Notes under the pieces: generated by a model
Seen by the model: only the letters and a program-made list of their open reading frames with translations
What the model was told of the DNA's origin: nothing
Databases searched by the model: none
Source of the DNA: Ignavibacteriae bacterium HGW-Ignavibacteriae-3
Lineage (GTDB): Bacteria > Bacteroidota > Ignavibacteria > Ignavibacteriales > Melioribacteraceae
DNA length: 38,613 nucleotides
Assembly: GCA_002839795.1 (NCBI GenBank)
Contig: PGYS01000014.1
Span: 1-38,613, forward strand
Direction of reading: 5' to 3'
Program-made: the position numbers and the translations under genes
In this document: one piece after another, positions 1 through 30,270 of the stretch
Numbering within the stretch: position 1 is the stretch's first letter
How the letters are laid out: each line of letters opens with the position of its first letter

Positions 1-257
1 TGAAATTGTTTAAAGCAACTGTAATTGTTAAGAGAAGACCCAAAATATTAGATCCCGAAGGGAAAGCCGTTGAACAAGGCGCCAAACTGCTCGGTTTTAA
101 TAATGTAAAGAAGACCCGTATCGGAAAGTATATTGAATTTTTTGTAGAAACAGGCGATAAACTTACGGCTGAAAAAGAGGTGCGTGAGTACAGCGAAAAA
201 CTCCTCTCTAATCCTATTATGGAAGATTTCGAATTTACTTTAGAAGAAGTAAAATGA
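1..257 (+). CDS. purS: Phosphoribosylformylglycinamidine synthase subunit PurS (5' end cut by one base)
   Basis: PurS is the small structural subunit of the PurL-PurQ-PurS complex that converts FGAR to FGAM in purine synthesis. The protein reads [21 protein letters not shown], a typical PurS start. Positions 1-2 are TG in frame, so the real ATG very probably begins one base before the window; the first in-window start, TTG at 6, would lose two residues. About 85 residues is normal for the family. It overlaps purQ by four bases (ATGA at 254-257), which suggests translational coupling. PurL is not in the window. Confidence 0.93.
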
Positions 258-943
258 AACCGAAATTTGGCGTAATAGTTTTTCCCGGTTCCAATTGTGA
301 CCATGACGCATATTTTGCAGTAAAGAAAATATTGGGATACGATGCTGAATTTATATGGCACAAGGAAAATGATCTTAAAGATTCCGATGTCATCATCCTC
401 CCTGGCGGATTTTCGTACGGCGATTATTTAAGGACGGGCGCAATTGCGCGCTTTTCCCCTGTTATGAAAACTGTTAATGATTTTGCGGAAAAAGGCGGGT
501 ATGTTATTGGAATTTGCAACGGATTTCAGATTCTGCTTGAGCTTGGATTGCTTCCCGGGATAATGATGAAAAATGAATCGTTAAAATTTGTTTGTAAGGA
601 TGTTCATCTGAGAGTAGAGTCCAATTCGAACATCTTTACAAAATCTATTGATCAAAAAATCCTTAAAATTCCTGTAGCACACGGCGAAGGGAACTATTTT
701 ACTGATGAAAAAACTCTTAATGAGCTGGAATCTAACCAACAGGTTTTATTCAGATATGTGTCAGGTGAAGGGAAAACGGGACAGGAATTTAATCCGAATG
801 GATCATTGAATAATATAGCCGGAATAATTAATAAAAAACGGAACGTGTTAGGACTTATGCCCCATCCGGAGCGCTGCTGCGATCCCGTACTTGGGAACAC
901 TGACGGCGCGTTATTGTTCAAGTCTGTGGCAGATAATTTATAG
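254..943 (+). CDS. purQ: Phosphoribosylformylglycinamidine synthase subunit PurQ (glutamine amidotransferase)
   Basis: PurQ is the glutaminase subunit of FGAM synthase and passes ammonia to PurL. The 229-residue protein is one class-I amidotransferase domain. The nucleophile elbow GICNGFQ places the catalytic Cys at residue 88, and PHPE near the end gives His204 and Glu206, so the Cys-His-Glu triad is complete. The oxyanion region [11 protein letters not shown] (50-60) is also typical. It is coupled to purS by an ATGA overlap. A stem-loop with a T-run follows the stop codon (977-998). Confidence 0.97.
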
Positions 944-976
944 TTTAGTTCATCAATAATTTTGCCGGTTATAAAC

Positions 977-998
977 TAAACTCACTGAGTTTATTTTT
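977..998 (+). terminator. Rho-independent terminator after purQ
   Basis: TAAACTC (977-983) and GAGTTTA (987-993) form a perfect 7-bp stem with loop ACT, followed directly by TTTTT (994-998). It lies between purQ and tatA. An upstream copy of the complementary sequence, AGTTTAGTT at 942-950, can pair with AACTAAACT (974-982) instead, so two mutually exclusive folds are possible. Confidence 0.65.
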
Positions 999-1024
999 CA
1001 AAAATTTATTTAATGAAGGTTATT

Positions 1025-1216
1025 ATGGGAAATCTTGGTGCAGGCGAAATACTTCTGATTGTATTAGTTATACTAATACTTTTCGGATCAAAGAAAATTC
1101 CTGATCTGGCGCAGGGAATTGGCAAAGGGATGCGCGAATTCAAAAAAGCTTTGAATGACGTTCAAGAGGATATTAAAATTTCCGATAAATCAGATTCCAA
1201 CAGCGATAAAAAATAA
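1025..1216 (+). CDS. tatA: Twin-arginine translocase subunit TatA/TatE
   Basis: TatA/E forms the translocation pore for folded proteins in the inner membrane. The 63-residue product has the standard layout: a short periplasmic N-terminus (MGNLGAGE), one membrane helix at about residues 7-20, the FG hinge (residues 20-21), an amphipathic helix ([21 protein letters not shown]) and a charged tail. I chose the ATG at 1025 because GAAGG (1015-1019) sits five bases upstream and Tat proteins normally begin right at this segment. The ATG at 1013 would add four residues. No tatC is nearby. Confidence 0.9.
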
Positions 1217-1252
1217 TTACAGATCTTTTCCAAAATCTTCCGGTGATCTCAT

Positions 1253-2665
1253 TTGCTGAAATATAAAAATCACTCTGAAAAAATTTCTCTGATCAGGGAA
1301 GGGAAACTCTCCCTGCGGGAGAATGTATCGGATTTCCTCAAGTTAATCAGGGAAAAGCCGGAACTCAACGCATTTAATTCTGTATTCGATGACTGCGTCG
1401 GATATTCTGAAGCAATTGAAACTAAAATTAAAAACGGCAATTCCGGCAAGCTTGCGGGAATGGTTGTTGCGGTTAAAGATGTTCTGGCAATCGCAGACCG
1501 GCCTCTCACCTGTTCATCAAATATTCTCAGAAATTTTACAGCGCTCTATAATGCCACGGCGGTACAGAAACTGATTGACGAAGACGCAATAATAATAGGG
1601 AAAACCAATTGCGATGAATTTGCCATGGGCTCTTCGAACGAGAATTCGGCGTTCGGAAATGTTCTTAACCCGGTGGATATTACCCGGGTACCCGGCGGAT
1701 CAAGCGGCGGTTCCGCTGTTGCAGTAGCGGCGCATCTCTGCGATGTATCATTAGGCACCGATACCGGAGGCTCTATAAGACAGCCTGCGGCATTCTGCGG
1801 TATATATGGATTAAAGCCAACCTATGGAAGAGTCTCCCGGTATGGGCTTACCGCTTTTGCTTCATCTTTCGATACCATCGGGCCTTTCGCTAAAAACATT
1901 GAAGATATTGAACTTGTGCTGTCAGTAATTTCCGGTTATGATGAAAAAGATTCCACCAGCAGGAAAATGGGGCACACGGTTTCCGGTTTAAAAATAAATT
2001 CTGAAGATAAATTCAAAATTGGATTGCCTGTTGAGTATTTTGGTGACGGATTGAATATGGAGATCCGTGATAGCATTCAGATGAAGATTGATCTTTTGAA
2101 GAAAAACGGTCATGAGATTATGAATATACAACTGCCTCATACTGAGTACTCCATCGCCGCCTATTATATTCTAACAACAGCTGAAGCATCAAGCAACCTT
2201 GCAAGATTTGACGGAGCCAGGTACGGTTACCGCTCCGCAGAAAGTAATAATTTATCCGGAATGTATATGAATTCCCGGACTGAAGGATTCGGATCTGAAG
2301 TAAAACGAAGAATAATGCTGGGTACTTACGTCCTTTCCTCCGGTTATTACGATGCGTATTACAGAAAAGCCCAAAAAGTGAGAAGGTTGTTAAAAGAGGA
2401 TTTCGACAGAGCTTTCGGAGAAGTTGACTTTATTTTAACTCCGACAACACCTACTACAGCTTTTAAGATCGGTGAGAAGACAAGCGATCCCCTGGCCATG
2501 TATCTGGAAGATATTTATACTACATCAGCTAATCTTGCCGGTCTTCCGGGGATAAATATCCCTGCGGGGTTTGATCAAAAAAATCTGCCTATCGGAATGC
2601 AGCTTATGTCGCGACAATTTGATGAAGAAAGATTACTTAATTTCTGCAGGGTTTTTGACATGTAA
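1253..2665 (+). CDS. gatA: Asp-tRNA(Asn)/Glu-tRNA(Gln) amidotransferase subunit A
   Basis: GatA is the amidase subunit of GatCAB, which converts misacylated Glu-tRNA(Gln) or Asp-tRNA(Asn) to the amide form. The 470-residue protein carries the amidase-signature domain with the Ser-cisSer-Lys triad: Lys75 in VVAVKD, Ser150 in PGGSSGGS and Ser174 in DTGGSIRQPA. This spacing matches that of characterised GatA proteins. The start is TTG at 1253, with GGTGAT (1242-1247) five bases upstream. It follows tatA by 36 bp. GatB and GatC are not in the window. Confidence 0.95.
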   Translation: MLKYKNHSEKISLIREGKLSLRENVSDFLKLIREKPELNAFNSVFDDCVGYSEAIETKIKNGNSGKLAGMVVAVKDVLAIADRPLTCSSNILRNFTALYNATAVQKLIDEDAIIIGKTNCDEFAMGSSNENSAFGNVLNPVDITRVPGGSSGGSAVAVAAHLCDVSLGTDTGGSIRQPAAFCGIYGLKPTYGRVSRYGLTAFASSFDTIGPFAKNIEDIELVLSVISGYDEKDSTSRKMGHTVSGLKINSEDKFKIGLPVEYFGDGLNMEIRDSIQMKIDLLKKNGHEIMNIQLPHTEYSIAAYYILTTAEASSNLARFDGARYGYRSAESNNLSGMYMNSRTEGFGSEVKRRIMLGTYVLSSGYYDAYYRKAQKVRRLLKEDFDRAFGEVDFILTPTTPTTAFKIGEKTSDPLAMYLEDIYTTSANLAGLPGINIPAGFDQKNLPIGMQLMSRQFDEERLLNFCRVFDM

Positions 2666-2728
2666 AATTCCCTAACCTTTCTTAATTTTAACCTGTCAAT
2701 TTTTGAAATCAATAAACAAGGAATAAAT

Positions 2729-3697
2729 ATGAGTATTCTACTCGACAAAAAAACACGAGTTGTTGTTCAAGGTATAACAGGCGGCGAGGGTTCGTTTCAC
2801 ACCAGACAGATGATGGAATATGGCACTAATGTAGTCGCCGGAGTTACTCCGGGTAAAGGAGGCCAGAAATTTGAAGATACTAATGTTCCCGTCTTCAATA
2901 CATTAGCCGATGCGGTTAAGAACACGAAAGCCCAGGCATCAGCAATTTTTGTTCCCCCTGCATTTGCTGCCGACGCTATTCTGGAAGCCGTTAACGCCGG
3001 TATTAAATTAATTGTTTGTATTACCGAAGGAATTCCAACTAAGGATATGATTGCTGTCTACGATATTATTAAAGAAAAGGATGTCCGTCTTGTCGGTCCG
3101 AATTGCCCCGGTATTATTTCCCCCGGTAAAGCAAAAATCGGAATCATGCCCGGCTTTATTCATAAGCAGGGAAAGATTGGTGTGGTATCCCGTAGCGGTA
3201 CCTTGACCTACGAAGCGGTAAAACAGTTGTCCGATCTTGGAATTGGACAGTCTACATGTGTCGGAATTGGCGGAGATCCGATTATCGGTTCAAGATTTAT
3301 AGATGTTATCAAATTGTTCAATGATGATCCGGGTACTGAAGGAATTGTGATGATTGGCGAAATAGGCGGAAGTGCCGAAGAGGAAGCCGCAACTTTCATC
3401 AAGAAAAATGTAAAAAAACCGGTCGTAGGATTTATAGCCGGAAGAACCGCACCTCCGGGAAGAAGAATGGGCCACGCCGGCGCCATCATATCCGGAGGGA
3501 AAGGTACGGCGGAAGAAAAAATGGCGGCTATGAAAAAAGCCGGCATTCGTGTTGTTGAAAGTCCTGCTGAAATCGGTATCACTATGAAAAAAGCTTTGGA
3601 TAAATTGAAAAAACCGGTCACGAAGAAAAAAACAATAGTAAAAAAGAAGGCTGTTAAAAAAGCGGCCGCAAAAAAAATAATATCTAAGAAAAAATAA
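2729..3697 (+). CDS. sucD: Succinyl-CoA ligase alpha subunit with a lysine-rich C-terminal tail
   Basis: This is the alpha subunit of succinyl-CoA synthetase, which makes ATP or GTP and succinate in the TCA cycle. It has the CoA-binding Rossmann part ([14 protein letters not shown], 11-24), the VGPNCPG motif (122-128) and the phosphorylated histidine in RRMGHAGAI (His249). The family normally ends near residue 290. Here about 30 further residues (292-322) are almost entirely Lys, Ala, Val and Ile, in [12 protein letters not shown]-like repeats. There is no frameshift; the tail is in frame up to the TAA. AAGGA precedes the ATG. The beta subunit SucC is not adjacent. Confidence 0.95.
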
Positions 3698-3779
3698 ATT
3701 TATTAATCATTCCTCACCGGGCCTTTATTGAAAGTCCATGAGATATGCGGTAAAATAATTTACAAAAAGGAGAGAAAGT

Positions 3780-4211
3780 TTGAACAATAAGACACTTGCA
3801 ATTCTTAAACCCGATTGCGTAAAGAAAAATCTGATAGGTCAGGTTGTAAATAAAATTCAGGATGCCGGCTTTAAAGTCAATGCAATGAAGATGGTAAAAT
3901 TAACACCGGATTCAGCCAAGGGATTTTATGAGGTTCATAAAGAAAGACCTTTTTTCAACGACCTGATTGCATATATGACTTCCGGCCCATGTGTTCCTAT
4001 AGCACTTGAAAAAGAAAATGCGGTTGAAGATTTTAGAAAATTAATCGGTTCTACGGATCCGACCAAAGCGGCAGATGGAACAATAAGGAAACTATTCGCC
4101 GAAAGTATTCAGGAAAATATTGTACATGGTTCCGATTCCGGTGAAAATGCAGCGAAAGAGATCCTCCACTTCTTCTCGCGCAAAGAGCTGCTCGAAATAA
4201 ACGGTTTCTAA
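3780..4211 (+). CDS. ndk: Nucleoside diphosphate kinase
   Basis: Ndk balances NTP and dNTP pools by moving the gamma phosphate through a phosphohistidine. The 143-residue protein has the N-terminal TLAILKPD segment and the active-site motif NIVHGSDS, with catalytic His116. The GTIR segment (100-103) of the nucleotide site is present. The start is TTG at 3780 behind a strong SD (AAGGAGAG at 3767-3774, spacer five), so the TTG is well supported. A 10-bp hairpin follows the stop. Confidence 0.97.
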
Positions 4212-4219
4212 TAATTTTG

Positions 4220-4243
4220 TACTCTCCCCTCCCGGGGAGAGTA
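4220..4243 (+). terminator. Hairpin after ndk, possible terminator
   Basis: TACTCTCCCC (4220-4229) and GGGGAGAGTA (4234-4243) form a perfect 10-bp stem with loop TCCC, nine bases after the ndk stop. Only a short TTT follows, so termination is plausible but not certain. The stem core is similar to the hairpin between yajC and speB (7707-7737). Confidence 0.5.
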
Positions 4244-4267
4244 TTTCACTCATAAAAAGAGAAATAA

Positions 4268-5299
4268 ATGAAAAAGTATACTATTAAAATTGCATTACTG
4301 TTTTTATTCCTCGCTATTATGGTGGGTTGCGGGAAAAAAGAATCCTCACAAAATGCTGCGTCAATTAATCCGGATAATCTACAATCAGTGGATGTCAGCG
4401 GACAAAAAATATACTTAAAGTATCAATTTGCTAAGGATGATAAATTACATTATAAGTTAACGACTATAACTAATACTCTACAGACGATAAAAGCAGATTC
4501 ATTACTAAAATCTTCGGCTGTTCAGACTCTGACATACTTTTTTGATATTAATGTAGTTGAGACAGACGCGAATAATGTTGCCGAGCTCGCGGTAAATATA
4601 GCCTCAATAAATTTTGCGGGGGATATTAACGGGCAGAAGATGAGTTACGATTCCAAGAAAGTTACAAAAGAAGATAAAGATAAATTTGCAGAATTTGAAG
4701 TGATTGTCAATTCGCCGTTCCGTGTCCGCGTAAATCAGAAAGGTGAAATATTAGATGTGACAAGAGTTGATAAAATGATAGACAAAATGATATCGATCAG
4801 ACCTGAGATGAAAGAGATGACTTCAGATCAGAAATCATCAATGATGAAGAATATCATTGAGGGTGAGTTAAAACCAAGGACACAACTGCTTTTCAGAGAA
4901 ATGACTTCCGTTCAGGTGGCCAAGGATTCAACTTGGAAGCGGTCAACACCGGCATCGCTCGCAGTTTTTCAGATTGAAAATACATCAAATTTTAAAGTGG
5001 ATGATTTCATAAAAGTAGGCGACGATAGGGCCGCTAAATTATCCGCAACTTTAACTTCGAAATGGAGCGGTGAGAAAAAAGGCAGTGAGGAAGGGATGAA
5101 TTTCCTCTTTGATGATCCAAAGGTAACAGGCGGCGGAACAATTATTTTTAATATTGATAGAGGACTTCTAATCAAAAGTGAAACATCGACTACTGTTGAA
5201 TTGGGCGTCCAGATTGACAGTAGAGATGCCACTCAAAAAATGCGTAAGACAGTCAGAAAGGACTTATCGACAAACAAGAATATCGTGGAATTATTATAA
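4268..5299 (+). CDS. Lipoprotein of unknown function, possibly DUF6263-like
   Basis: The 343-residue protein starts with a lipoprotein signal peptide. A charged MKKYTIK is followed by a hydrophobic run and MVGC, so Cys21 is the likely lipidated residue. The mature part is rich in beta-type alternation. It has a segment YLKYQFAKDDKLHYKL after about residue 48, resembling the opening of DUF6263 proteins of Bacteroidota; that assignment is from memory and unsure. No catalytic motif is visible. It follows ndk by 56 bp with a hairpin between, so it may be transcribed separately. It faces the convergent nfeD gene. Confidence 0.8.
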   Translation: MKKYTIKIALLFLFLAIMVGCGKKESSQNAASINPDNLQSVDVSGQKIYLKYQFAKDDKLHYKLTTITNTLQTIKADSLLKSSAVQTLTYFFDINVVETDANNVAELAVNIASINFAGDINGQKMSYDSKKVTKEDKDKFAEFEVIVNSPFRVRVNQKGEILDVTRVDKMIDKMISIRPEMKEMTSDQKSSMMKNIIEGELKPRTQLLFREMTSVQVAKDSTWKRSTPASLAVFQIENTSNFKVDDFIKVGDDRAAKLSATLTSKWSGEKKGSEEGMNFLFDDPKVTGGGTIIFNIDRGLLIKSETSTTVELGVQIDSRDATQKMRKTVRKDLSTNKNIVELL

Positions 5300-5311
5300 T
5301 AGACAATAGGA

Positions 5312-5357
5312 AGAGACTGTTTCAGAACTGATATTATTCAATGCTGAGACAGTCTCT
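5312..5357. terminator. Bidirectional terminator between convergent genes
   Basis: AGAGACTGTTTCAG (5312-5325) and CTGAGACAGTCTCT (5344-5357) pair over 14 positions with one G-T wobble and an 18-base loop. The site lies exactly between the convergent lipoprotein gene and nfeD. A related inverted repeat occurs at 35835-35928. Confidence 0.6.
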
Positions 5358-5386
5358 AATCCGGCAGGCCCGATTATTATAATTTA

Positions 5387-6715
5387 TCAGGATTCTTTTT
5401 TTACTCCCACAACTATCTTAGATCCTTCAACCGCCTTGACAATAATTTTTACATCATTGTCAATGTAATCCCCTTCGGTAACAACGTCAATTCGCTGACC
5501 ATCGATAATTGCGCTTCCGGCCGGCCGCAGAGTTGTAAGAGCCAATCCCTCCATCCCTACAAGATGCTCAAATGACTGTCTGGTTGCATATCCCGACTTT
5601 GTAACGATATTATCCTGCAGGATCAATCTGTTCCAGATTCTGGATTTCGGCAGCAGTTTGGAAAGAAAAAAAATAAATACAGCGGCCACAATAAAAACCG
5701 AGGCAAGCTGGATTATAGCAACTGATAAAATGGAAAAGTCATTCATACCGAAATCTGAAACAAGTCCGAAGAATAAACCGCCGATCATAAATAGAATTCC
5801 GAGAATACCAAAAATCCCGAAACCGGGTATCACAAATATTTCAATGAGTATAAGAGCAACTCCGATAATAAAAATTATTATCTCCACAACTGAGGCAAGG
5901 TCAAGAATATAACTTGATCCGAAAAAGAGCGCGAGTGCCGCAACAGCCAGAGTTCCCGGTAAACCCCATCCGGGAGTTTTTATCTCCGTAAATATACCAA
6001 GCATTCCCACTAAGATCAGCAGTGATGAAATAATAGGATTATTAAGAAAACGGACAAAGTCTTCTGCCCAGTTGGTAACTACCGGAACATCTATTGAATC
6101 CTGAAGACCGAAGGCTTTCTTCACATCCTGAATACTCGATAGAACGGTATCTGCCATTTTATACTTATGCGCTTCCTCCGAAGTCAGTGTGATCAATTGC
6201 TTTTCATTGTCATTCAGATCGCTTACAATTATTGTCTCATCTACCATTCCCTGAGCAATGTCGGTGCGGCGTCCGTTTTTTTCGGCTGTGGCTCTCATTT
6301 CGGAGCGCATGTAAGATTGATATTTTTCTGATTGCTTCTGCCCCTCGGCATCCACAACGGTGGTAGCGCCCATAGAAGCACCCGGCACCATTACAATTTT
6401 TTCGCACGATAAAGCTATTAAAGCACCCGCCGATATTGCTCGCTTATCAATGTAAGCTATTGTCATAACTTTACTGTTGAGTATGGCATCCTTTATCTTG
6501 GTTGCTGCATCAACCCTTCCGCCGAAAGTATTGATTTTGAATATTATCGCAGATGCCTTATCATTCCCCGCCTCTTCGACAACTCTTTTAATAAATGGAG
6601 CTAAACCAAGGTCGATATCACCCTCGATATTGGCAATGTACACTTTGGAAGTTTGCGCGGAAAGATTGGCGATAAATAAAACGGATAGTAGTACAAATAA
6701 TATTCTTTTCATCAT
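5387..6715 (-). CDS. NfeD-family membrane-bound ClpP-class serine protease
   Basis: This is the long form of NfeD: a periplasmic ClpP-like protease domain, a multi-pass membrane region and a C-terminal OB-fold NfeD domain. Such proteins are thought to work with a stomatin-like partner. Signal peptide residues 1-20 end at LSA. The protease domain (about 24-200) shows INTFGGRVDAA, the probable nucleophile Ser95 in RAISAGALIA, GASMGAT and candidate base Lys131. About five membrane helices cover 225-352, and the OB domain covers 365-440. The start is one of two consecutive ATG codons (6715 or 6712). No stomatin gene is adjacent. Confidence 0.9.
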   Translation of the reverse strand: MMKRILFVLLSVLFIANLSAQTSKVYIANIEGDIDLGLAPFIKRVVEEAGNDKASAIIFKINTFGGRVDAATKIKDAILNSKVMTIAYIDKRAISAGALIALSCEKIVMVPGASMGATTVVDAEGQKQSEKYQSYMRSEMRATAEKNGRRTDIAQGMVDETIIVSDLNDNEKQLITLTSEEAHKYKMADTVLSSIQDVKKAFGLQDSIDVPVVTNWAEDFVRFLNNPIISSLLILVGMLGIFTEIKTPGWGLPGTLAVAALALFFGSSYILDLASVVEIIIFIIGVALILIEIFVIPGFGIFGILGILFMIGGLFFGLVSDFGMNDFSILSVAIIQLASVFIVAAVFIFFLSKLLPKSRIWNRLILQDNIVTKSGYATRQSFEHLVGMEGLALTTLRPAGSAIIDGQRIDVVTEGDYIDNDVKIIVKAVEGSKIVVGVKKES

Positions 6716-6765
6716 TGTTTTTATAATACCTCTTAGAGTGGAAATTTTACAATGACTACTTAGCT

Positions 6766-6797
6766 AAAAAGAACAACTAATTCAACAATTGTTTCTT
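6766..6797 (-). terminator. Possible terminator at the end of speB
   Basis: On the minus strand AAGAAACAA and TTGTTCTT can pair with one bulged base, followed by TTTTT (the A-run at 6766-6770). The stem overlaps the speB stop codon. It would separate speB from nfeD. Confidence 0.35.
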
Positions 6798-7686
6798 AAC
6801 GTTTGGCGAACGCATAATTGAGCATCTTGTATACAAGTTTGGCCGTTACAAAATTTGAAGCGGTGCTGAATTTATTAGGTGCTAACTCAACTACATCAAA
6901 ACCGACAATATTTTTTTCAAGTCCGATTATTTTCAGAAGATTCATTGTTTCATCCCAGAACAATCCGCCCGGTTCGGGTGTCCCGGTAGCCGGCATAAAC
7001 GAAGGATCGAACCCGTCAACATCAAAAGTTATGTAAACATTTTCTGTTAAATTCTTGGCCACCATTTCCTGCCAGTTCTCTCCATACATCCCCAGCTTTA
7101 TCTCGCGGGCATAAAAAGTTTTGATCTTTTTCTGTTTCCTGAAATCGGCCTCATCCTTGCACTGTGCACGGATACCAACCTGGACTATTTTTGTATTGAA
7201 TTCGGCAACTCTCGCCATTATACTGGCGTGAGAATATTTTGATCCTTCGTAATCCTGCCTTAGATCAGAATGGGCGTCAATTTGAAGTATCGAAAGATCG
7301 GGGAACCTTTCATTGTGGGCAAATATAGGGGCTGTGGAGAGCGAGTGCTCACCCCCGAGCGTCACGACAAATTTACCGGCGTCAATATGCTTTACCACCT
7401 CTTTGTAAATTTTTTCAAGAGATTTTTCAACAGAAAGTTTTTGAAGATTGAGCGGTTCAAGAGTGCATATTCCCTTTTCAAAACATAATTCAAGGTTCTG
7501 TTCTTCATCGTAAAATTCTACAAAATGAGAAGCGCTAAGAATTTCTGCCGGACCTTTAGCGGTTCCTTTTCCATAGCTGACAGTCTTTTCCAGAGGAGCA
7601 GAAATTATAACTATTTCAGAATTACCATAAGTCGAGAATTCTTTTTCAATCGCGAGAAAGTTTTTCCTGACGCCCAATTCTTTCAT
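6796..7686 (-). CDS. speB: Agmatinase/arginase-family ureohydrolase
   Basis: The probable role is hydrolysis of agmatine to putrescine and urea, in polyamine synthesis. The 296-residue protein has all the two-manganese ligands of the ureohydrolase fold: His114 in GGEHS, Asp137, His139 and Asp141 in DAHSD, and Asp222 and Asp224 in FDVDGFDPS. I chose the ATG at 7686 because AAGGAAAG lies four bases upstream. The longer reading from 7722 would start inside the hairpin at 7707-7737. Length and motif spacing fit SpeB, but other guanidino substrates cannot be excluded. It lies downstream of yajC. Confidence 0.88.
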   Translation of the reverse strand: MKELGVRKNFLAIEKEFSTYGNSEIVIISAPLEKTVSYGKGTAKGPAEILSASHFVEFYDEEQNLELCFEKGICTLEPLNLQKLSVEKSLEKIYKEVVKHIDAGKFVVTLGGEHSLSTAPIFAHNERFPDLSILQIDAHSDLRQDYEGSKYSHASIMARVAEFNTKIVQVGIRAQCKDEADFRKQKKIKTFYAREIKLGMYGENWQEMVAKNLTENVYITFDVDGFDPSFMPATGTPEPGGLFWDETMNLLKIIGLEKNIVGFDVVELAPNKFSTASNFVTAKLVYKMLNYAFAKR

Positions 7687-7706
7687 TTTACTTTCCTTAA
7701 AAATGG

Positions 7707-7737
7707 TCTCCCCTCTCATCAAGAAATGGAGGGGAGA
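7707..7737 (-). terminator. Hairpin between yajC and speB, probable terminator
   Basis: TCTCCCCTC (7707-7715) and GAGGGGAGA (7729-7737) form a perfect 9-bp stem with a 13-base loop. On the minus strand TTTTT follows three bases after the stem. It begins 14 bases past the yajC stop, so it may end the tgt-yajC transcript or attenuate speB. Confidence 0.5.
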
Positions 7738-7751
7738 ATATTATGCGTAAA

Positions 7752-8069
7752 TTATTTATCGCTGCTATCTTTCAATACAACTGCTACAGCGGAACGTTCA
7801 AATTTCATTTTGATATTATTACCAACGTCAATTAATACTGCTTTTTCCTCGAGTCCGGCTATAGTTCCATGCAATCCTCCGGTAAGAACAACTTTATCAC
7901 CTTTCTGGATTGCTTCGAGCATTGCTTTCTGCTCTTTTGCTCTCTTCTGCTGCGGACGGATAATCATAAAATAAAATATTGCAAAGATGGCTCCGAACAT
8001 AATCAGTGTGCTGATCATACCGCCGCCGCCTTGTTCACCTTGTGGTGCCATTGCTAATAAGATTTCCAT
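7752..8069 (-). CDS. yajC: Preprotein translocase accessory subunit YajC
   Basis: YajC is the single-span partner of SecDF at the Sec translocon. The 105-residue product has a glycine-rich N-terminus, one membrane helix at about residues 18-38, the family motif MIIRPQQKRAKE and a cytoplasmic beta-rich part with GDKVVLTGGLHGTI. It lies nine bases downstream of tgt, the classical tgt-yajC order. secD does not follow here; a hairpin and speB come next. Confidence 0.95.
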   Translation of the reverse strand: MEILLAMAPQGEQGGGGMISTLIMFGAIFAIFYFMIIRPQQKRAKEQKAMLEAIQKGDKVVLTGGLHGTIAGLEEKAVLIDVGNNIKMKFERSAVAVVLKDSSDK

Positions 8070-8078
8070 TTACTGCTC

Positions 8079-9275
<1,197 letters not shown>

Positions 9276-24211: not shown

Positions 24212-24466
24212 TTACTTCTGCATTTTGTTGTATTCATCGACTGCCATTTTTTCAAGTGTTGATCTCATTTCTTTTGGAAGAATGACAGAATCATAATATT
24301 TGCCATCCTTCCCTTTTTCACTTGGCGGTGAAATAAAAAATCCATTCACACTGTCTACCAGACGGAATCCCTTAATAGTGATTTCATCCGGAGTCTGGAC
24401 ATCAAAGAAAGCGGCCATTTTTCCGCCATCTTTTTTTTCGAGCGGGTTCATTCGGACAATTTTCAT
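24212..24466 (-). CDS. SpoVG-like small nucleic-acid-binding protein (paralogue A)
   Basis: The 84-residue protein matches the SpoVG fold pattern: N-terminal strands (MKIVRMNPLEKKDGGKMAAFF), then ITIKGFRLVDSVNGFFISPP, PSEKGKDGK (48-56), SVILPKEMR and a final helix VDEYNK. SpoVG proteins bind DNA or RNA and act as regulators outside sporulators too. The nine residues PSEKGKDGK and the later PKEMR are identical to the second copy at 29968. A strong SD (AAAGGAGAT) precedes the ATG. The gene stands alone, with an 8-bp inverted repeat 50 bases upstream. Its function in this organism is unknown. Confidence 0.82.
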   Translation of the reverse strand: MKIVRMNPLEKKDGGKMAAFFDVQTPDEITIKGFRLVDSVNGFFISPPSEKGKDGKYYDSVILPKEMRSTLEKMAVDEYNKMQK

Positions 24467-28229: not shown

Positions 28230-28258
28230 TACAGTAGTTGTAAAATATATTGAGGTAC

Positions 28259-28334
<76 letters not shown>

Positions 28335-28341
28335 GTCTTCG

Positions 28342-28357
28342 CCCCGCTAAAGCGGGG
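28342..28357. repeat. Hairpin at the left end of the GIY-YIG element
   Basis: CCCCGCT and AGCGGGG flank AA, forming a 7-bp stem eight bases after the tRNA CCA end. It could act as a structured 3' trailer or terminator for the tRNA, though no T-run follows. Confidence 0.5.
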
Positions 28358-28445
28358 CTACGCCTGGCGGGCCACAGAATATTTCGCGAAGACTGTCCTG
28401 CGAAGCCACGCCTCCGGCGGGACGAAGACGGACAAAGCGAAGTAT

Positions 28446-28697
28446 ATGATTTATTATGTTTACATATTACAAAGCTTAAACCATCCAACTCAGCACTACG
28501 TAGGTTCTACAATAAATCTTGATGGACGTCTTAAAAAACATAACGAAGGCGGATCGCCGCATACTTCAAAATACAAACCCTGGCAAATCATCACATCAAT
28601 ATCCTTTCCAGATAAATCTAAGGCCTTGAAATTTGAGAAGTATTTAAAATCGCATTCAGGAAGAACTTTCACCAGCAAACATTTTATTATAAGCTAA
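28446..28697 (+). CDS. Small GIY-YIG endonuclease
   Basis: The 83-residue protein has the GIY-YIG core in its short form: YYVYILQSL (first strand), HYVGSTINLDGRLKKHNEG (YVG and catalytic Arg), then PWQIITSISF and the final KSKALKFEKYLKSHSGR with the metal-binding Glu. These stand-alone COG2827-type proteins occur in many copies near RNA genes in some bacteria. I chose ATG 28446; the frame upstream, open from 28290, only translates the tRNA end and the element's palindromes. The stop lies within the right inverted repeat. Confidence 0.85.
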   Translation: MIYYVYILQSLNHPTQHYVGSTINLDGRLKKHNEGGSPHTSKYKPWQIITSISFPDKSKALKFEKYLKSHSGRTFTSKHFIIS

Positions 28698-29967: not shown

Positions 29968-30270
29968 TCAGAACGGCAGGTCTCGTCCGTCATCAGCGGG
30001 CAGCTGAGAACCTGAAGATCCGGTTCTTTGTTTTTCATACTCGCCGACCACCATTCTGTTTATGTCGTCTCTCATTTCTTTCGGTATTATGACAGACTCA
30101 CGCCATTTACCGTCTTTCCCTTTTTCACTTGGCGCGCCGACAAACAAGCCGGTCGGGCCAAGAATTAATTTAAATCCTTTTAATATCACACCTTCGTTTG
30201 TTTCCAGGTCAACGAATGCTTTAGTATTTCCCGCAGCTCCATCGTATATGAATAATCTTGAAATCGTCAT
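29968..30270 (-). CDS. SpoVG-like protein with an SSB-like C-terminal tip (paralogue B)
   Basis: The 100-residue protein shares the SpoVG core with the gene at 24212: VILKGFKLILGPTGLFVGAPSEKGKDGK (PSEKGKDGK at 47-55), then SVIIPKEMR and VGEYEK. The last 20 residues differ. A Gly/Ser linker runs into DDGRDLPF (93-100), which matches the acidic DD-LPF tip of Bacteroidota-type single-stranded DNA-binding proteins. That tip normally docks repair and replication enzymes. AAGGA six bases before the ATG supports the start. That it binds nucleic acid is known for the family; tip docking is my inference. Confidence 0.8.
   Translation of the reverse strand: MTISRLFIYDGAAGNTKAFVDLETNEGVILKGFKLILGPTGLFVGAPSEKGKDGKWRESVIIPKEMRDDINRMVVGEYEKQRTGSSGSQLPADDGRDLPF

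Follow-up and report, generated by a model that had tools for sequence, protein, structure and literature searches.

The genome of Ignavibacteriae bacterium HGW-Ignavibacteriae-3 encodes a SpoVG-fold protein that is not itself an SSB and that ends in the same Asp-Leu-Pro-Phe tip as an SSB of this genome. Judged from its sequence, this protein, here named SpoVG-B, probably borrows the docking code of the SSB C-terminal tail (SSB-Ct), which would direct a SpoVG module to where repair or replication takes place. SSB uses its C-terminal docking tail, DFDDDIPF in E. coli, to recruit DNA repair enzymes. To our knowledge, docking through SSB-Ct is regarded as a property of SSB itself, hence the view of SSB as a hub, and we know of no clear role for SpoVG outside Firmicutes and Borrelia. 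The window analyzed here, 38,613 nucleotides of contig PGYS01000014.1, contains two SpoVG copies, the tip-bearing SpoVG-B and the tipless SpoVG-A (Table 1).

In agreement with the SpoVG-pattern core that a first-pass annotation had read in this gene, the Pfam SpoVG profile PF04026 matched SpoVG-B with E=2e-9 and 37.9 bits, above the curated cut-off of 29.6, and solved SpoVG chains aligned to it at E about 5e-6 in a sequence comparison. The AF2 model gave the core a pLDDT of 81-91 and extended the C-terminal helix up to residue 84. When the PDB was searched with this model, all 10 best matches were SpoVG chains, 7 of them with E < 0.001; the top match was SpoVG of S. epidermidis (2i9z, probability 1.00), which is about 30% identical to SpoVG-B across 83 columns. 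The OB-fold SSB domain (PF00436) was absent from SpoVG-B, as Pfam and the fold search gave only SpoVG. A scan for promoters and terminators around the gene yielded chance-level signals only.

Table 1. Positions of the SpoVG genes, of the parts of SpoVG-B and of helicase operons with a tip-bearing SpoVG. Positions are those of the window unless a locus is named.
Feature	Position	Strand	Details
SpoVG-B gene	29968-30270	-	100 aa; C-terminal end EKQRTGSSGSQLPADDGRDLPF followed by stop; ORF translation
SpoVG-B core, residues 1-80 (beta sheet and start of C-terminal helix; helix residues 64-84)	30031..30270	-	PF04026, AF2, fold match
Variable linker, residues 81-96 (QRTGSSGSQLPADDGR)	29983..30030	-	low pLDDT; 1/16 identical in 3 genus orthologues
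SSB-Ct-like tip DLPF and stop	29968..29982	-	4/4 identical in 3 orthologues; same as SSB tail of the genome
SpoVG-A	24212-24466	-	84 aa, ends EYNKMQK; PF04026 E=2.5e-11; genus-wide synteny of gene block
Helicase/coiled-coil/SpoVG operon, defence-type gene sets	L102 205-9999; L117 (Fidelibacterota) 52-8205	+ (both)	

Translation of the minus strand also upheld the linker and the DDGRDLPF ending noted in the first-pass annotation. The 16-aa linker appears disordered, with a pLDDT of about 50-57 in the AF2 model and below 50 at residues 86-92. It leads into ADDGRDLPF-stop, i.e., an acidic stretch, a hydrophobic residue and a terminal Pro-Phe with free carboxylate, and the last 10 residues carry a net charge of -2. 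The SpoVG-B sequence thus has each of the features that define an SSB-Ct docking motif (flexible linker, acidic stretch, hydrophobic residue and terminal Pro-Phe). The two tails are alike in their disordered linker, acidic stretch and terminal hydrophobic-Pro-Phe, the DDDLPF of the genome's own SSB included, but that of SpoVG-B has fewer consecutive Asp residues and is mounted on a SpoVG core instead of an OB fold.

The SSB-type character ascribed to this ending in the first-pass annotation was sustained by comparison with both the SSBs and the orthologues. Two SSBs are encoded in the genome, one with and one without a tip. The tip-bearing SSB (L004) ends SSGAGTDDDLPF, its last residues being GTDDDLPF, and this DDDLPF matches the DLPF of SpoVG-B. 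In contrast, the other SSB, located in an rpsF-ssb-rpsR-rplI operon whose genes were named by reading their translations, ends DIMKSNKS. The same division between a tipless operon SSB and a tip-bearing SSB was present in relatives from the family, and xDLPF ends every one of the 26 tip-bearing SSBs sampled from this genome and its relatives. Operon SSBs that lack a DxLPF tip and share a conserved SFDKFLTDEESDL-type end were found in the source family and two others (L003 1477-1947 on the plus strand, L036-L046, L059, L168-L170 and L172-L174), together with a second, tip-bearing SSB elsewhere; families f4, f5 and f10 have a single SSB, which is tip-bearing. Among SpoVG-B orthologues, the tip was retained within the genus, where the proteins of G025 (76% identity) and G019 (70% identity) end DDDKDLPF and EGNNDLPF, and in a DVPF form in more distant family relatives (NDDVPF in G035, DEDVPF in G037). 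Across the three genus orthologues compared, 3 of the 4 tip codons differ synonymously. Since all 4 tip residues were kept despite these codon changes while only 1 of 16 linker residues was identical, the alignment indicates that purifying selection acts on the tip at the protein level.

The tip of SpoVG-B is more than a chance occurrence. As a DNA pattern, D[LIVMF]PF-stop occurred 14 times in the 3.36-Mb genome, the same number as in the reversed control. Credible in-frame gene ends of this form were confined, in the whole genome, to the SSB of L004, SpoVG-B and one ferredoxin-like protein (EEDFPF). Among ORFs of at least 150 aa in the sampled loci, 4 of 458 end in PF, and one of these is an SSB. 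The ferredoxin-type protein, located in L065 (G000:C122 near 7992-8006), ends NTEEDFPF.

That SpoVGs do not carry the tip as a rule is shown by the syntenic paralogue SpoVG-A, which lies 5.5 kb from SpoVG-B in the same window and has no tail. Most SpoVGs of Ignavibacteria, this paralogue included, are tipless. To follow the tip more widely, we used 75 nonredundant SpoVGs from the Bacteroidota/Ignavibacteriota/Fidelibacterota clade, 19 of them long-tailed (at least 91 residues) and 56 shorter. Pro-Phe terminated 16 of the 19 long-tailed proteins (the remaining 3 have PV or PL instead), none of the 56 short-tailed ones and only 4 of the 458 background ORFs, which argues that the SpoVG tail is a module that is either present or absent. 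Because the sequences of the clade are related, Fisher values do not represent independent tests and a count on the tree is safer: on a SpoVG tree built on few columns, the tip state changed 7 times, with at least 5 changes forced by well-supported branches. The strict form [DE]x[LIVMF]PF was found in 10 of the 19 long tails. Weaker tips (EAPF, DSPF, NAPF, TTPF and NDPF) occurred in other lineages, and the tail ending in NAPF has no acidic residue among its last eight; from their sequences, tips such as EAPF, DSPF and NAPF may dock poorly to SSB-Ct pockets. SpoVG-B shares with the SpoVG family (B. subtilis, S. aureus, B. burgdorferi) a PF04026 match above the cut-off and the same predicted fold, but it differs in a Glu49-Lys50 pair and in its SSB-Ct-like tail, the tip being absent from the Firmicutes-, Omnitrophota- and virus-derived SpoVGs inspected. 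Scans of phage and plasmid collections and of IMG/VR gave few SpoVGs and no PF tip among the ends read (one viral SpoVG ends ELPL), and so lend no support to a phage origin of the tip.

SpoVG-B showed no conserved synteny, even inside the genus. In the window, its neighbours, identified by reading the sequence, are an adenosine deaminase-like gene on one side and a BtpA-like gene on the other, and neither is a repair gene. The G025 copy precedes recD2 by 43 bp, both genes being on one strand, and beyond recD2 come dinB and dnaE-like genes. This adjacency was found only in G025 among the genomes checked, the recD2 genes of G000, G029, G035 and G037 having no SpoVG neighbour. A second arrangement was present in G037 (Melioribacteraceae) and in a Fidelibacterota genome, where a RecQ/DpdF-like helicase gene is followed by that of a coiled-coil protein and, third and overlapping the latter, by a tip-bearing SpoVG gene. 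Further genes beside these operons encode either a DrmD-like helicase and a type IIG restriction enzyme, or a PLD nuclease. Altogether, helicase adjacency of tip-bearing SpoVGs comprised two arrangements in about ten contexts examined. A class-wide search with the RecQ-like helicase as query returned general DEAD-box/RecQ proteins, with flanks too short to show a SpoVG operon. Beside dinB and recD2, L099 (578-5158) also carries DNA polymerase III alpha-like pieces on opposite strands (PHP and NTPase on the minus, finger on the plus strand), which could reflect two separate genes, an inverted segment or an assembly error.

Docking to the partners of SSB is favoured because SpoVG-B has the sequence features of the E. 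coli SSB-Ct mechanism, and this reading is strengthened by the conservation of the tip under selection, by its recurrence and by the RecD2 and RecQ-type helicase genes that adjoin tip-bearing SpoVG genes. A SpoVG-fold protein would have acquired or kept an SSB tail, in which a flexible linker of ∼16 residues and an acidic stretch lead to a terminal Asp-Leu-Pro-Phe, and its Pro-Phe would insert into the SSB-Ct pocket of RecO, PriA, RecD2 or RecQ-type helicases. The SpoVG core would thereby be delivered to, or regulate, SSB-interacting enzymes at repair or replication sites, and SpoVG-B may act in competition or hand-off with SSB. RecO, PriA and RecD2 are encoded in the source genome. Since tip-bearing SpoVG genes adjoin those of RecD2 and RecQ-type helicases in other genomes, these two are the foremost candidate partners. 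In B. subtilis, SsbA interacts with RecD2, RecQ, RecO, PriA and DnaE (PMC10804225). In E. coli, the SSB-Ct pocket accommodates the final Phe, its carboxylate and Asp residues; partners no longer bind once the last Phe is lost, altering the Pro leaves binding greatly weakened, and a length of 11-20 residues is sufficient for the linker (PMC10164576). An engineered PriB-SSBc chimera, in which the SSB tail increased the affinity for ssDNA and stimulated the activity of PriA, resembles SpoVG-B in carrying this tail on a nucleic-acid-binding-type protein other than SSB (PMC8509808). However, the chimera was made artificially and PriB resembles SSB in structure, whereas SpoVG-B is natural and of unrelated fold. 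More tentatively, tip-bearing SpoVGs might constitute distinct natural carriers of the SSB tail, repeatedly gained and lost in the Bacteroidota/Ignavibacteriota/Fidelibacterota clade, and have an adaptor role towards RecD2- and RecQ-type helicases, both in repair and in anti-phage defence operons. In the literature, we found no paper linking SpoVG with an SSB-type tip or with a defence operon.

Alternatively, the acidic aromatic tip could fold back onto the SpoVG core and compete with nucleic acid there, recruiting no other enzymes. The tail is acidic and its length would let it reach the core, and self-interaction of SSB-Ct with its own OB domain has been reported (PMC10164576). Autoinhibition by charge, however, would need no invariant terminal Pro-Phe equal to the SSB tip of the genome, and the AF2 model gives the tail no confident placement; we therefore consider such an intramolecular switch unlikely, although it is compatible with docking and the two do not exclude each other. 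It is similarly improbable that the PF end represents another C-terminal code, e.g., a recognition signal for a protease or chaperone or a determinant of SpoVG self-assembly, that merely looks like SSB-Ct. Such a code would suit the EAPF, DSPF, NAPF and TTPF ends, which retain PF with no preceding hydrophobic residue while the SSBs of the same genomes all retain LPF, but it fits less well with the rarity of PF ends among background ORFs and with the stricter motif in about half of the long tails. Least probable is that the tip arose neutrally by accident or through recent fusion to the end of an SSB gene: short motifs can arise by chance and the SpoVG-B gene is non-syntenic even within the genus, but the tip is kept, with synonymous changes in its codons, beside a freely changing linker, and it recurs across families and phyla.

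If a second, unrelated family of nucleic-acid-binding type has an SSB tail, other proteins would be able to share the hub code or to compete for it, and docking as proposed above would tie SpoVG to replication and repair in a way open to direct test. It also suggests a simple search for bacterial protein families with members that end in the local SSB tip.

The SpoVG core binds DNA or RNA in other bacteria. In S. aureus SpoVG, the basic doublet Lys50-Arg51 is needed for DNA binding (PMC3688583). SpoVG-B has Glu49-Lys50 at this site, with K52 and K55 close by; alignment showed the same Glu-Lys pair in the paralogue P0002, and the surrounding SpoVG clade has it as well, i.e., one of the two basic residues is replaced by Glu. 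Since Glu-Lys takes the place of a required doublet, the SpoVG-B core is a putative binder of DNA or RNA, and SpoVG function is not easily carried over to it. Also in the window, an ORF at 28250-28697 (plus strand) reads as GIY-YIG endonuclease-like in its 3' half, and a frame (GAIAQLGERLNGIQEASGSNPL) that, again from reading, is typically a spurious translation of a tRNA gene overlaps its 5' part.
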